From: an uncultured Oscillospiraceae bacterium
GTDB lineage: Bacteria > Bacillota > Clostridia > Oscillospirales > Oscillospiraceae
Reading direction: 5' to 3'
Length of the DNA: 54,228 bases
Assembly: GCA_947627745.1 (NCBI GenBank)
Contig: CANQXH010000004.1
Coordinates: 1-54,228, forward strand
Part shown: one piece after another, positions 805 to 7,036 of the stretch
How positions within the stretch are numbered: position 1 is the first letter of the stretch
How the letters are laid out: each line of letters starts with the position of its first letter
Made by a program: the position numbers and the translations under genes
Notes under the pieces: model-generated
What the model saw: only the letters and a program-made list of their open reading frames with translations
Told to the model about the DNA's origin: nothing
The model's database searches: none

Positions 805-2544
805 GTGGCGTTTCCGCCGGCATTTTTGGACGAGCTGGTGGCTCGAAATCCCATTGAAGAAGTGGTGAGTCAGTATGTGAATCTTCGCCGCAGCGGGGCC
901 AACCTCTTTGGCCTGTGCCCCTTCCACGGGGAGAAGACCGCCTCTTTCTCCGTTTCTCCGGACAAGGGCATGTACTACTGCTTCGGCTGCCACAAGGGCG
1001 GCGGGGTGATCAACTTCCTGATGGAGATCGAGAACCTGAGCTACCCCGATGCCGTCCGGGCCCTGGCCCAGCGGGCGGGGATGACCGTGCCGGAGGACGA
1101 GCAGTATCAGAGCCGCTACCAGCAGCAGGAGCGGCTCTGGGCGCTGTGCAAGGAGGCGGCCCGGTATTACCATGCCCAGCTCTACGCCCCCGCCGGGGCG
1201 GCGGGCCTGGCCTATGCCCAGAAGCGGGGCATGACCCAGTCCATCTTGACCCGATTTGGGGTGGGCTTCGCCCCGGATTCCTGGTCCGGCCTGGTGGACG
1301 CCATGCGGGCCAAAGGCTATACCGATCAGGAATTGCGGGACGCCGGGCTGGTGTCCGAGAAGAACGGCCGGGTTTACGACCGGTTCCGCAACCGGCTGAT
1401 GTTTCCCATTATCGACGTCCGGGGCAATCTTATCGGCTTCGGCGGTCGGGTGATGGACGACTCCACGCCGAAGTACCTAAACTCTCCCGAAACCTTGATT
1501 TTCAATAAACGGAAGAACCTTTTCGGTCTGAATCTGGCGAAAAAGAGCAAGCTGGGGTATCTGATCCTGGTGGAGGGGTACATGGACGCGGTGAGCCTGC
1601 ACCAGTACGGCTTCGACTGCGCCGTGGCCTCCCTAGGCACCGCCCTGACGGAGGACCACGCCACCCTGCTCACCAGGTATACCGAGGAAGTGGTCCTCAT
1701 CTACGACGCCGACCAGGCCGGGCAGGACGCCACCCGGCGGGCCATCCCCATTTTGGAGCGGGCGGGCCTGCGGGTGAAGGTGCTGAAGGTGAAGGACGCC
1801 AAGGACCCCGACGAGTTTTTGAAGAAATTCGGCGCGGACCGCTTCCAGGTTCTGCTGGAGGGGGCCTCCAACCGGATCGAGTATCAGCTTTCCGCCATCG
1901 TCAAAAAATACGACCTGCGGGAGGACGACCAGCGGATCCGCTTTGTCCAAGAGGCGGCGGAGCTGATCAGCACCTTGGGCAGCGCCGTCCAGCGGGAGAT
2001 CTACGGAGGACGGGCGGCGGAGGCCGCCGGCATCACGGCTGACGCCATGAAGCTGGAGGTGGAGAAGGCCTGGCGCCGCCGCCGGGCTCGGGAGAAAAAA
2101 CGCCAGGAGCGGATCGACCTGGCCCCTGCCCAGACCCTCCGGCCCAAGGACCGGAGCATCCGCTATGACAATATGAAATCCGCCATGGCGGAGGAGCTGC
2201 TGATCTGCCTGCTGATGAAGGATCCCGCCCTGGCGGACCTGACCGGGAACTTGACGGAAGCGGATTTCTCCGTCCCGCTGCTGGGCCGGGTGTTTGGCCA
2301 GTTGAAAAGCCGGCATGAACAGGGCTTGGAGCTGTCCCTGGGGGTGCTGGAGGGCCTGACCCCGGAGGAGACTTCCCATTTGGCCGGGGCGCTCCAGCGG
2401 AACCAGGGCCCGGCCCGGGAGGAAGCGGCGCGGGACTGCGTCACCGTGATTATGGATGAAAACCGGGGGACAAAGGACGGCTCGGAGGAGTCCCTTTTGG
2501 CCCTTCGGGATCGGATGAAACAGAGAAAAGGGGTCAAGTCATGA
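805..2544 (+). CDS. dnaG: DNA primase DnaG
   Basis: Makes the RNA primers used by the replisome. GTG start at 805 with GGAGGTGG at 791-798; 579 residues, a normal length for the family. The N-terminal CHC2 zinc finger has Cys38, His41, Cys59 and Cys62. The TOPRIM core has the metal-binding glutamate in LVEGYMD (about residues 255-261) and the DxD in LIYDADQAG (about 298-306). The C-terminal third is the variable helicase-interaction region. The stop overlaps the next gene's ATG as ATGA, so translation of the sigma factor is probably coupled, giving a short form of the macromolecular-synthesis operon. Confidence 0.98.
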   Translation: MAFPPAFLDELVARNPIEEVVSQYVNLRRSGANLFGLCPFHGEKTASFSVSPDKGMYYCFGCHKGGGVINFLMEIENLSYPDAVRALAQRAGMTVPEDEQYQSRYQQQERLWALCKEAARYYHAQLYAPAGAAGLAYAQKRGMTQSILTRFGVGFAPDSWSGLVDAMRAKGYTDQELRDAGLVSEKNGRVYDRFRNRLMFPIIDVRGNLIGFGGRVMDDSTPKYLNSPETLIFNKRKNLFGLNLAKKSKLGYLILVEGYMDAVSLHQYGFDCAVASLGTALTEDHATLLTRYTEEVVLIYDADQAGQDATRRAIPILERAGLRVKVLKVKDAKDPDEFLKKFGADRFQVLLEGASNRIEYQLSAIVKKYDLREDDQRIRFVQEAAELISTLGSAVQREIYGGRAAEAAGITADAMKLEVEKAWRRRRAREKKRQERIDLAPAQTLRPKDRSIRYDNMKSAMAEELLICLLMKDPALADLTGNLTEADFSVPLLGRVFGQLKSRHEQGLELSLGVLEGLTPEETSHLAGALQRNQGPAREEAARDCVTVIMDENRGTKDGSEESLLALRDRMKQRKGVKS

Positions 2545-3407
2545 GCCCATCGGTTTTACAGGAGGAGCGGACGCCCCGGAATTCCGGGGAGGACGGTCTG
2601 AGCCAGTATCTTCAGGAAATTCGCAGCTATCCTCAGCTGACGGCTGAGCAGGAGCGGGCTCTGGCCATGCGCTGCGCCCAGGGAGACGAGGAGGCGGTGC
2701 GGCAGATGGTGAGCGCCAATCTGCGGCTGGTGGTGTCCGTGGCCCGGGAGTACGCCGGGCGGGGGATGCCGCTGCTGGATCTGATCCAGGAGGGCAGTAT
2801 TGGCCTGATCGTGGCCGCCCGGAAATTTGACTATACCCTGGACTATCGCTTTTCCACCTACGCCACCAAGTGGATCCGCCAGGGCATTACCCGGTGCCTG
2901 ATGAACCACAGCGGGATGATCCGGGTGCCCCTCCATACGGCGGAGCGGATGCGCCGGGTCAGCGCCGCTCGGGCGGCGCTGTTGCAGCAGACTGGGGAGG
3001 AACCGACCCCCGCCCAGATCGCCTTGGCCTGTGATTTGCCTGAGGACCGGGTCAAGAAGCTCTTGGAGCTTACGCCCCAGACCTGCTCTCTGGACGCCCC
3101 GGCGGGGGAGGAGGACATCGCTCTGGGCGCGATGCTGGCGGATCAGGAGGCCAGCGAGCCCCAGGAGGAGCTGGTGCGCCAGGAGCTGCGGCAGATTCTG
3201 GGCCAGCTGCTGTCCCAGCTGACGCCACGTCAGCGGCAGGTGCTGGAGCTGCACTTTGGCATGACCGGGCAGACCAGCTATTCCCTGGAAGCCATCAGCA
3301 AGCAATTGGGCATTTCCAAGGAGCGGGTGCGGCAGATCGAGCGGCAGGCCATGGACAAGCTGCAAAAGCTGGGCGTGAGCCTGGGACTGGAGGATTTTTT
3401 GGAGTGA
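2541..3407 (+). CDS. rpoD: RNA polymerase sigma-70 family factor, RpoD/SigA-like, short
   Basis: Sigma factor that directs RNA polymerase to promoters. 288 residues: region 1.2 (SQYLQEIRSY, about 21-30), region 2 (NLRLVVSVAREYAGRG to WIRQGITRCL, 60-120), region 3 (120-200) and region 4.2 with GISKERVRQIERQAMDKLQ (257-275). Region 1.1 is absent, making it shorter than usual primary sigmas. In region 2.3/2.4 the usual tryptophan pair of YATWWIRQ reads YATKWIRQ, so Lys110 replaces the residue equivalent to E. coli W433; Gln114 and Thr117 (E. coli Q437 and T440) are kept. Position after dnaG suggests the housekeeping factor, but the lysine leaves room for a group 2 role. ATGA overlap with dnaG, GTGA overlap with the next gene. 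Confidence 0.9.
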   Translation: MSPSVLQEERTPRNSGEDGLSQYLQEIRSYPQLTAEQERALAMRCAQGDEEAVRQMVSANLRLVVSVAREYAGRGMPLLDLIQEGSIGLIVAARKFDYTLDYRFSTYATKWIRQGITRCLMNHSGMIRVPLHTAERMRRVSAARAALLQQTGEEPTPAQIALACDLPEDRVKKLLELTPQTCSLDAPAGEEDIALGAMLADQEASEPQEELVRQELRQILGQLLSQLTPRQRQVLELHFGMTGQTSYSLEAISKQLGISKERVRQIERQAMDKLQKLGVSLGLEDFLE

Positions 3408-4414
3408 ACGAGGATTTTTGCTTTGAGATTCCCCCCTACGAGGCGGCGCTGACGGCGCTGGGGCCGGGGGAATCCATTTCGGCGGCCCGGCTGCTGGCGC
3501 TGATCGACGGTCTCAGCCAGACCGAGGCGGAGGATGCTTTTCAGTTGGCGGAGGATCTGGAGCTGCGCCTTCTGATGGATCTGCCCCGGGAGACGGAGCC
3601 CGCCACGCCCAGGCTTGCCTGGGAGGACAGCCAGGTTCGGGCCGGCACCCTGCGCCGGGAGCTGCGGGAAAACGACCCCCTTGCTCTATATCTGCGGGAG
3701 ATCGAGGGACCTGCCCTCTCCGCCGGAGCCATCCAGGCATTGGCGGAGCGCTGCCTAGAAGGGGACCAGCGGGCCATGGAGGCCCTGGCCCGAGGCTACC
3801 TTCCCCGGGCGGCGGAGCTGGCCATGTCCATGACTGGCCGGGGCGTGCTGCTGCTGGACCTGATCCAGGAGGGCAGTCTGGGCTTGTGGCAGAGCGTCAT
3901 GCGCTATGCCGGCGGTGATTTTTCAGCCTTTGCCGACCGTTGGATCCGGTTTGCGCTGGCAAAGGCCGTGATTCTTCAAGCCCATGCCCAGGGCGTGGGC
4001 AGGGAATTGAGAAAGGCCATGGAGTCCTACCAGGCCGCGGACCGTGCGCTGCTGGCCCGGCTGGGCCGAAACCCATTGCCAGAGGAGCTTGCAAAGGCGC
4101 TGGGCTGGGACTTAGAGGAGATCCGGCGACTTGAAAAGTTGATTTCTGACGCCCAAAGCGCTCAAAGGTCCGCCCCGGAGCCGGAGGAACCGGCCCAGAA
4201 TGTGGAGCACACCGCCTATTTCCAGAGCCGCCGCCGGGTGGAGGAGCTGCTGGAGGGCGCGGACCCCGAAGACGTCCGGCTCCTCTCTCTGCGCTTCGGC
4301 CTGGAGACCGGGAAACCCGCCACGGCGGAGGAGACTGCCCAAATGCTGGGCATTTCCCCGGAAGAGGTGCTGCGCCGGGAGGCGGAGGCTCTAAAGCGGC
4401 TGCGGGAAGACTGA
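3404..4414 (+). CDS. Degenerate sigma-70-like protein coupled to rpoD
   Basis: 336 residues, GTG start overlapping the preceding stop as GTGA. Residues 1-65 look like a small helical region 1.1-type domain. Region 1.2 (DPLALYLREIEG, 91-102) and the core-binding region 2.2 (LLLDLIQEGSLGLW, 149-162) are well kept. Region 2.3/2.4 is eroded (FSAFADRWIRFALAKAV), and region 4.2 keeps a helix-turn-helix outline (TAQMLGISPEEV) without the RVRQIE recognition helix. It may therefore bind core polymerase but read promoters poorly or not at all. A dedicated alternative sigma, a competitor of the upstream factor, or a partner supplying region 1.1 are all possible. The sigma-family call is good; the role is unknown. 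Confidence 0.75.
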   Translation: MNEDFCFEIPPYEAALTALGPGESISAARLLALIDGLSQTEAEDAFQLAEDLELRLLMDLPRETEPATPRLAWEDSQVRAGTLRRELRENDPLALYLREIEGPALSAGAIQALAERCLEGDQRAMEALARGYLPRAAELAMSMTGRGVLLLDLIQEGSLGLWQSVMRYAGGDFSAFADRWIRFALAKAVILQAHAQGVGRELRKAMESYQAADRALLARLGRNPLPEELAKALGWDLEEIRRLEKLISDAQSAQRSAPEPEEPAQNVEHTAYFQSRRRVEELLEGADPEDVRLLSLRFGLETGKPATAEETAQMLGISPEEVLRREAEALKRLRED

Positions 4415-4430
4415 AAACGGAGGAGATACC

Positions 4431-5111
4431 ATGGAAAAGACCTACGCCGTCGCCATCGACGGCCCCGCCGGCGCGGGAAAAAGCACCCTGGCCCGGCTTT
4501 TGGCCCAGGAGCTGGGGTGGTATTATGTGGACACGGGGGCGATCTACCGCACCGTTGCCTATTTTCTGGATCTGCTGGGGATCAGCCCCAAGGACGCCGA
4601 CGGGGTGGCCCGTTACATCGACGAGGTGAACGTGGAGATCCGCTATGACGAGCAAGGTGTCCAGCACATGTGGATGAACGGCATGGACGTGACGGAGGAG
4701 ATCCGCACCCCGGACATCTCCCAGAAGGCGTCTCTGGTCTCCGCCCATCCGCCCGTGCGGCAGGCTCTGCTGGAAATGCAGCGGGACCTGGCGCAGCGGC
4801 ACAACGTGGTGATGGACGGCCGAGACATTGGCACGGTGGTGCTGCCCCAGGCGGCGGTGAAGCTGTTCCTCACCGCCTCCCCGGAGGTCCGGGCGCAACG
4901 CCGCTACGCGGAGCTGCGGGCTAAGGGTAAGAAAGACACCTATGAGCAGGTTCTGGAGGATCTGCGCCGCCGGGACCGGCAGGACACCACTCGCTCCGTC
5001 GCCCCCCTGCGTCAGGCCCCCGACGCGGTGCTGCTGGACACCACCGAGCTGGACATTCCCCAGACCCTGGACGCCATGCGGGCCATCGTCCGGGAAAAGA
5101 CCGGCCTATGA
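4431..5111 (+). CDS. cmk: Cytidylate kinase
   Basis: Phosphorylates CMP/dCMP to the diphosphates using ATP. 226 residues, ATG at 4431 behind GGAGGAGATACC. The P-loop GPAGAGKST lies at about residues 11-19, followed by the typical YYVDTGAIYRTVAY substrate segment and the MDGRDIGTVVLP motif (about 127-138), both diagnostic for bacterial Cmk. The C-terminal lid region has RRRDRQDTTRSVAPL. Its stop overlaps the next ATG as ATGA. A cmk followed by ispH-S1 is a recurring clostridial arrangement. Confidence 0.97.
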   Translation: MEKTYAVAIDGPAGAGKSTLARLLAQELGWYYVDTGAIYRTVAYFLDLLGISPKDADGVARYIDEVNVEIRYDEQGVQHMWMNGMDVTEEIRTPDISQKASLVSAHPPVRQALLEMQRDLAQRHNVVMDGRDIGTVVLPQAAVKLFLTASPEVRAQRRYAELRAKGKKDTYEQVLEDLRRRDRQDTTRSVAPLRQAPDAVLLDTTELDIPQTLDAMRAIVREKTGL

Positions 5112-7036
5112 GCGTCCGCCTTGCCGAGAGCGCCGGCTTCTGCTTCGGCGTGGACCGGGCCATGGGCCTGGCGGAGCAGGCGGCCAAAGAGGGGAGACAG
5201 GTGGTCACCCTGGGCCCCATCATCCACAATCGTCACGCGGTGGCCCACCTGGAGGAGCTGGGAGTCCGGGTTATTGACCGGCCCCAGGACGCCCCGGCGG
5301 GCGCGGCGGTGGTCATCCGCTCCCACGGGGTGGGCCGGGAGGTTTACCGGGCCTTGGAGGAGACCGGGGTGGCGGTGATCGACGCCACCTGCCCCTTCGT
5401 CAAGCGGATCCACCGGATCGTGGCCCAGGCGGAGCGGGAAGGGCGACTCAGTCTGATCATCGGCCAGCGGGCCCACCCGGAGGTGGCCGGGATCGCCGGT
5501 TGGTGCGGAAACTGTGTGGTGTGCGAAAGTCCGCAGGAGCTGGAAAATTGGTCAAAATCGCCCGAAATCCCGTCGGATTTGCCAATTTGCATGGTTTGTC
5601 AGACAACTTCCCCCGAATCTTTGTGGGAAATGTGCGAAAAAATTGCGAAAAAACAGTTTACTAACTTGAAATTTTTTGATACAATATGTAAAGCAACAGA
5701 GTATCGGCAGAATGAGGCAGCTTTACTCAGCGAAGGCTGCCAGGCCATGGTGATCGTGGGGGACCGCACCAGTTCCAACACGAAACGCCTGGCGATGATC
5801 TGCCGGGAGCATTGCGAAAAAGTCGTACTGGTGGACAGTGCCTCGGAGCTGGAGCCGGCCTTTTTCCGCGGTGTGACGGATGTTGGAGTCACGGCGGGCG
5901 CATCTACGCCGGCGTGGATTATAAAGGAGGTCAACAAGAAAATGAGCGAAATCATCAATGCCGAGGCAGGCCAGGAGGAGAGCTTTGAGGCCCTGCTGGA
6001 GCAGTCCATCAAAACTTTGAATACTGGAGATAAGGTCACTGGCGTCGTGACAGGCTTCGGAGCTACCGAGGTGCAGATCGACCTTGGCACCAAGCACGCC
6101 GGCTATATCCCCAACGACGAGGTCAGTTCCGATCCTTCCATAAAGCCCGAGGATGTACTCCATGTGGGCGACGAGGTCGAGGTTTTCGTGGTGCGCGTAA
6201 ACGACCAGGAGGGCACCTGCCAGCTGTCCAAGAAGAAGCTGGACGGAATGCGGGTCTGGGACGAGATGGCGGCCTATGCCGAGGAAAAGACCACCGTCGA
6301 AGGGACCATTACCGAGGACAATAAGGGCGGCCTGGTCGCCAATGTGAAGGGCGTTCGGGTGTTCATTCCCGCCTCTCAGTCCGGGATCGCCAAGGGCGGC
6401 GATATGAAGGCCATGGTGGGCAAGACCGTCAAGCTGAAGATTACCGAGGTCAACCGGGCCCGCCGCCGGGTCATCGGCTCCATCCGGGCCGTTGCCGCCG
6501 AGGAGCGGAAGGCCGCCCAGGAGAAGATCTGGAGCGAGATCGAGAACGGCAAGAAGTACCACGGCGTGGTGAAGTCCCTGACTTCCTACGGCGCCTTTGT
6601 GGATATCGGCGGCGTGGACGGCATGGTCCATGTTTCCGAGCTGAGCTGGAACCGGATCAAGACCCCCGCCGACGTGGTGAAGGTGGGCGATGAGATCGAC
6701 GTGTTCGTCATCTCCTTCGATCCTGTGAAGCACAAGATCTCCCTGGGCTACAAGACCCCGGAGATGAACCCCTGGAATCAGTTTATGACCAAGTTCCAGA
6801 CCGGCGACGTGGTGGACGCCAAGATTGTCAAGCTGATGACCTTCGGCGCCTTTGCCGAGATCATTCCCGGTGTGGACGGCCTGATCCACATCTCCCAGAT
6901 TGCGGACCGCCGCATCGGCAAGCCCGAGGACGTGCTGAAGGAGGGCCAGGAGGTCAAGGTGAAGATCACCGACATCGACGCGGAGAACAAGCGGATCTCC
7001 CTGTCCATCCGGGCGCTGCTGGAAGCCGCCGAATAA
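5108..7036 (+). CDS. ispH: IspH-ribosomal protein S1 fusion
   Basis: Residues 1 to about 280 are 4-hydroxy-3-methylbut-2-enyl diphosphate reductase, the last step of the MEP isoprenoid pathway. The three Fe-S cysteines are Cys12 (AGFCFGVDRAM), Cys95 (IDATCPFV) and Cys194 (DTICKATEYRQ). Residues about 300-640 hold four S1 RNA-binding repeats (near 306-378, 395-462, 480-550 and 565-637), as in ribosomal protein S1. This fusion is known in Clostridia. 642 residues, ATG overlapping the cmk stop. Unusually, an AT-rich patch inside the ispH half carries a promoter-like pair, and a strong ribosome site precedes an in-frame ATG at 5942 exactly at the domain junction. A stand-alone S1 product is therefore plausible. 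Confidence 0.95.
   Translation: MSVRLAESAGFCFGVDRAMGLAEQAAKEGRQVVTLGPIIHNRHAVAHLEELGVRVIDRPQDAPAGAAVVIRSHGVGREVYRALEETGVAVIDATCPFVKRIHRIVAQAEREGRLSLIIGQRAHPEVAGIAGWCGNCVVCESPQELENWSKSPEIPSDLPICMVCQTTSPESLWEMCEKIAKKQFTNLKFFDTICKATEYRQNEAALLSEGCQAMVIVGDRTSSNTKRLAMICREHCEKVVLVDSASELEPAFFRGVTDVGVTAGASTPAWIIKEVNKKMSEIINAEAGQEESFEALLEQSIKTLNTGDKVTGVVTGFGATEVQIDLGTKHAGYIPNDEVSSDPSIKPEDVLHVGDEVEVFVVRVNDQEGTCQLSKKKLDGMRVWDEMAAYAEEKTTVEGTITEDNKGGLVANVKGVRVFIPASQSGIAKGGDMKAMVGKTVKLKITEVNRARRRVIGSIRAVAAEERKAAQEKIWSEIENGKKYHGVVKSLTSYGAFVDIGGVDGMVHVSELSWNRIKTPADVVKVGDEIDVFVISFDPVKHKISLGYKTPEMNPWNQFMTKFQTGDVVDAKIVKLMTFGAFAEIIPGVDGLIHISQIADRRIGKPEDVLKEGQEVKVKITDIDAENKRISLSIRALLEAAE
5657..5685 (+). promoter_or_regulatory. 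Candidate internal promoter in the ispH half
   Basis: TTTACT (5657-5662), 17-nt spacer, TACAAT (5680-5685), inside a distinctly AT-rich stretch of an otherwise GC-rich gene. It would yield a transcript covering only the S1 part. Confidence 0.45.
5923..5944 (+). promoter_or_regulatory. Internal ribosome binding site and ATG at the IspH/S1 junction
   Basis: AAAGGAGGT (5923-5931) is followed, ten bases on, by an in-frame ATG (5942-5944, residue 279), just after the conserved IspH C-terminal segment. Initiation here would give a 364-residue S1 protein. Confidence 0.55.

Follow-up and report, generated by a model that had tools for sequence, protein, structure and literature searches.

The slot behind dnaG is the classic dnaG-rpoD site of the primary sigma gene. 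In an uncultured Oscillospiraceae bacterium (GCA_947627745.1) this site contains two overlapping sigma-like genes, raising the question of what each of them does and how the pair arose. Both lie at positions 2541-4414 of the 54,228-nt stretch of contig CANQXH010000004.1 that was analyzed here, hereafter the window. Based on the ORF list, the gene order is dgt - dnaG - ORF1 - ORF2 - cmk - ispH/rpsA, and all the features located below are on the plus strand. The stop codon of dnaG (primase, 805..2544), a gene assigned from the ORF list and from synteny across genomes, overlaps the start of ORF1 by 4 nt. According to Pfam, NCBIfam and a residue table, ORF1 (2541..3407) encodes a group-2-like sigma-70 protein of 288 aa that spans regions 1.2-4.2 and lacks region 1.1, and ORF2 (3404..4414) encodes a degenerate SigA paralogue of 336 aa. 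The initial annotation had located the pair correctly, including the overlap of the downstream gene: the GTG start of ORF2 sits inside the stop of ORF1 (GTGA), giving a 4-nt overlap, and a GGAGG identified by eye 10 nt before the GTG (3389..3393) is its likely ribosome-binding site. The overlap is of 4 nt in 23 of 35 species and of 8 nt in 10 of them, and such an arrangement suggests coupled expression of ORF1 and ORF2. Further along the window, a single frame of 642 aa (5108-7036) appears, judging by its sequence, to be a fusion of IspH with ribosomal protein S1-type repeats.

Neither ORF1 nor ORF2 is the housekeeping sigma factor. The source genome, which is 98% complete, has on contig C10 a separate and complete SigA in which region 1.1 is present and the contact residues are canonical, and the existence of this gene rules out the housekeeping role for ORF1. 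The initial annotation had regarded another full-length SigA, together with absence of the pair from relatives, as evidence against its proposal; the SigA does exist, and the relatives are considered below. The unlinked C10 gene (locus L002, 1150-2322) has features of its own, as its finger reads DTSIGSFVED, not DSHLGDFI, and the Y425 position is occupied by Asn, both being conserved across the genus and its sister genera. Two congeneric species show further changes in SigA content: a recent tandem duplication of the unlinked gene in G013 (L212, 1414-3935) and an extra, fast-evolving SigA-like gene of about 322 aa in G028 (L207, 1343-2311).

The class of ORF1 was assessed from its domains and contact residues, whose roles follow E. 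coli sigma70 numbering and the papers cited. As initially annotated, region 1.1 is absent: Pfam matched regions 1.2, 2, 3 and 4, and the protein begins at region 1.2 in all species aligned. Its best NCBIfam match, PRK09210, scored 267 bits, under the cut-off of 572 for that model, and it is 41% identical to the C10 SigA of its own genome. In the alignment to E. coli sigma70, the core-binding region 2.2 (2763..2831, LDLIQEGSIGL) keeps D403, Q406 and E407, and the residue table gives Ser at N409 in most ORF1 sequences. Residues W434, Y430, Q437, H455/E458, E585, R586, R588 and Q589 are retained in most or all species, and R451 and most of the sigma finger persist in all or nearly all species. 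Two positions carry Lys in 33 of 34 species, namely Lys260 (3318..3320) at R584 of region 4.2 and Lys110 (2868..2870) at W433 of the promoter-melting W-dyad; the latter is the substitution of a promoter-opening tryptophan that had already been noticed in the window. A Lys-Trp dyad and the absence of region 1.1 place ORF1 outside group 1, and its regions 1.2, 2, 3 and 4, related to those of group 1 and without a region 1.1, are those of a group 2 sigma. W433 belongs to a set of aromatic residues required for open complexes (PMC2613000). Sigma32, with His at this position, is able to melt DNA, though the W-dyad does so better, the ranking being WW > HW > QR (PMC10216364). Since sigma32 works with His, ORF1 with Lys probably works too, and weaker melting is expected of it because Lys takes the place of the W433 wedge. 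ORF1 is probably, then, a working alternative sigma of the group 2 type. Two other assignments were discarded: MzaA, the MZA defence sigma, gave 250.7 and 71.4 bits against an NCBIfam cut-off of 800, which is general sigma similarity only, and general sigma similarity was likewise all that was found for a phage origin.

Concerning ORF2, Pfam matched regions 2, 3 and 4 with lower scores than in ORF1. The Pfam model of region 1.1 did not reach E=1 against ORF2. However, hhalign comparison of residues 10-61 (3431..3586) with region 1.1 of the SigA that is linked to dnaG in sister genera, which was the best region 1.1 match, gave P 2.4e-5 with a probability of 75%, a score reached by 0 of 200 column shuffles. 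A shuffle control against single-copy SigAs gave erratic scores and was left out of this evidence. The 1.1-like start proposed for ORF2 is, judged by these profiles, a remote but significant region 1.1. Region 2.2 (GVLLLDLIQEGSLGLWQ, 3842..3910) is largely kept, with D403, L404, Q406 and G408 in 35/35 species and E407 in 33/35, so that the clamp residues expected of a core-binding protein are there at the sequence level. The description of this region as intact holds for those five residues and not for N409, which is Ser in most species, or M413, which is Trp; both changes could weaken core binding. We take these individual residues of 2.2, in E. coli numbering, to be core-binding; no paper naming them was found in the openly accessible literature.

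The regions that read and open promoters have fared differently, and their erosion goes further than had been claimed, as it includes R451, R584, R586, the finger and the C-terminal tail. ORF2 retains 65% of the SigA-invariant residues of region 2.2 and 96% of those of 3.1 (three sites only), whereas the figures fall to 18% for 2.3, 34% for 2.4, 8% for 3.0, 10% for the finger and 39% for 4.2. None of the 11 SigA-invariant sites of region 2.3 is retained in at least 80% of the species, the melting and -10 residues of 2.3-2.4 (3911..4000) are lost, and so are the extended -10 residues. R451 is Gly in 34/35 species and P453 is also replaced by Gly. The finger segment (region 3.2, 4148..4198) is unconserved and shorter by about 6 residues. 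In region 4.2 (4310..4411) the helix-turn-helix is kept, the -35 contacts are replaced (R584 by Pro or Ala, R586 by Glu in 30/35 species, R588 mostly by hydrophobic residues) and the C-terminal tail is missing. Before region 4.1, a linker motif found only in ORF2, VExTAYFQxRxR (4202..4237), has V267, E268, T270, A271, F273, Q274, R276 and R278 conserved at 90% or more, most of them differing from SigA. The whole protein is acidic, with a mean pI of 4.57 and a mean net charge of -26. Its AF2 model, built from 6 near-identical sequences, was poor (pLDDT 49). ORF2 thus lacks the melting, -10 and -35 contacts and the sigma finger needed for initiation. It might be proposed that ORF2 still functions as a sigma and has diverged to recognize promoters of a new kind, given that the region 4 helix-turn-helix persists (Pfam 38.6 bits) and that the gene is under purifying selection. 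We consider this unlikely, because finger and melting residues are gone, positive charge has disappeared from 2.3-2.4 and 4.2, and region 2.3 is not conserved even within ORF2, where its mean entropy is 1.74 bits vs 0.56 in ORF1.

The pair had been described as split-looking. One sigma gene cut in two is ruled out, as both proteins span regions 1.2-4.2, which indicates a duplication followed by unequal decay. Comparison with relatives shows the preceding states: many other genera of the family have a single full-length SigA, which follows dnaG in the genomes checked, and in about a dozen sister genera an intact SigA occupies the dnaG slot and an unlinked, slow-evolving SigA, the counterpart of the C10 gene, is present as well. 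In the genus of the window the slot is occupied by ORF1 and ORF2 instead of SigA. The coexistence of slot and unlinked copies in sister genera argues for duplication of the slot copy, and not for the splitting of one gene. ORF1 and ORF2 each formed one clade in a first tree, which joined long branches, and rooted trees leaving out one or the other nested each with the dnaG-linked SigA. The two also share N409S, which occurs in no SigA. In an explicit tree test, descent from the unlinked SigA was not rejected, so the slot copy is favoured by synteny and by the region 1.1 match. The pair most likely arose, we infer, by tandem duplication of the dnaG-slot SigA. Tandem pairs of full-length canonical SigA genes behind dnaG were also seen in two other families of the order (L165, 3896-6224; L166, 3806-6167), apparently as independent duplications.

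ORF2 is widespread in its genus. A search profile was built from 23 ORF2 sequences, and genomes scoring above SigA level were counted. It matched 126 of the 136 species of the genus and 39 of the 40 high-quality genomes, and among 295 genomes of the order no ORF2 above SigA level was found outside the genus, where the best score, 199.7 bits, belonged to a dnaG-linked SigA of a sister genus (genus members, 243-546). The pair is, then, far from absent in relatives. Among the ten species without ORF2, seven have assemblies that lack dnaG, two are broken at a contig end and one (G510, locus L225) represents a real loss, with a contiguous dnaG-ORF1-cmk arrangement in which ORF1 has K433 and K584 unchanged. 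This species is a natural control for ORF2 function, and it bears on the proposal that a single sigma is assembled from ORF1 and ORF2 as its two subunits, with region 1.1 supplied in trans by ORF2. The overlap of the genes, the absence of 1.1 from ORF1 and its presence in ORF2 would fit such a division, and two-part sigmas are known in SigO-RsoA of Bacillus subtilis and gp55-gp33 of T4. These systems resemble our pair in having two cooperating sigma-like proteins, gp33 being a DNA-blind, flap-binding partner. Yet they divide the regions between partners, whereas ORF1 and ORF2 each carry 1.2-4.2, ORF1 already has every promoter-reading region, and ORF2 keeps 2.2, so that both would compete for the same clamp site. 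This shared site and the persistence of ORF1 without ORF2 in G510 make an obligate two-part sigma unlikely on sequence grounds; the divided function suggested for the pair is disfavoured, and we regard the two-subunit arrangement in general as improbable.

Both genes are under purifying selection, with dN/dS between close species of 0.05-0.24 for ORF1 and 0.08-0.38 for ORF2 (0.04-0.13 for dnaG), and decay of ORF2 in close strains, named initially as a sign against the proposal, was not what we found. No gene of the locus evolves faster than ORF2 (tree length 14.4 vs 6.1 for dnaG), which, together with the loss in G510, could be taken to mean that it is a slowly decaying relic carried in an essential operon. 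However, its frame is open in nearly all of the 126 species in spite of identities to the window protein down to about 40%, a stop codon in one species clips only its last residues, and its dN/dS is well below 1 and it has a private conserved motif; a relic is very improbable, and dN/dS and open frames rule out a pseudogene. The evolutionary rates of ORF1 and ORF2 are weakly coupled (rho 0.35, p 0.011 for all branches; 0.25, p 0.2 for tips).

ORF2 has retained the 2.2 clamp surface and lost the residues for reading and melting promoters along with the finger, a pattern expected of a docking sigma that does not start transcription. A competitor or regulator of core polymerase, one of the functions initially suggested, is the best reading of ORF2. 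We give a probability of about 0.5 to the view that ORF1 is an alternative sigma and ORF2 a promoter-blind one that tunes competition for core, both derived from a duplicated slot SigA; the duplication history, core binding, competition and effects on transcription are what we infer from comparing sequences. Under this scheme the unlinked SigA would have taken over housekeeping, leaving the dnaG-linked SigA redundant, and the latter would have been duplicated in tandem in the ancestor of the genus. One copy, ORF1, would have dropped region 1.1 to become an alternative sigma, expected to have preserved core binding and the recognition of SigA-like -10/-35 promoters but to melt them more weakly. 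The other, ORF2, would have preserved an acidic head resembling region 1.1, the surface of region 2.2 and the helix-turn-helix scaffold while shedding promoter-reading, melting and finger residues. Unable to start transcription, it would use 2.2 to dock on the beta' clamp, or else on an anti-sigma, and, being made together with ORF1, may set the share of core available to competing sigmas. In group 1 sigmas, region 1.1 masks the DNA-binding parts of free sigma and acts as a DNA mimic in the polymerase channel (PMC4598750), and the ORF2 head could block that channel. A bolder version, less likely than not, would have ORF2 as a chromosomal SigA-derived decoy that loads on core, plugs the DNA channel by means of its 1.1 head, opposes the housekeeping sigma and helps ORF1.

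Core binding is not the sole reading of the ORF2 2.2 surface because anti-sigmas also bind region 2.2, those of the RseA type covering it (PMC4598750). The main rival is therefore a sigma mimic, which would use 2.2 and the sigma4 scaffold to capture an anti-sigma directed at ORF1, thereby releasing ORF1, and the gene overlap suggests the ORF1-coupled expression that it would call for. The likeness is to PhyR of alphaproteobacteria, in which a sigma-like domain regulates by protein binding and not as a sigma. But PhyR is ECF-like and has a receiver domain, whereas ORF2 derives from SigA and has regions 1.1 and 3.1, and a Pfam scan found no receiver domain in it. The anti-sigma partner of ORF1 is hypothetical, and a mimic has no obvious need for the region 1.1 and much of the 3.1 that ORF2 keeps, so we judge this mimic to be rather unlikely.

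Among other known systems, ORF1 resembles group 2 sigmas such as RpoS and the SigA paralogues of cyanobacteria and actinobacteria, which are near group 1, have regions 1.2-4.2 without 1.1 and exist beside a primary SigA. Unlike them, it stands in the dnaG slot of the primary sigma, has Lys at W433 and overlaps a degenerate twin. The duplicated or alternative primary sigmas of Burkholderia (PMC2194791) are likewise copies of a primary sigma kept in a clade, but those duplicates keep all promoter and core regions and ORF2 lacks the promoter-reading ones. No paper on such a sigma pair was found in the openly accessible literature, subscription papers lying mostly outside the search.

If ORF2 does bind core without reading promoters, the primary sigma itself would have supplied the material for a regulator, and the stepwise duplication behind it is still legible in living sister genera. 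Such a regulator would make sigma competition testable in uncultured gut Oscillospiraceae and would illustrate how a housekeeping sigma can give rise to its own competitor.
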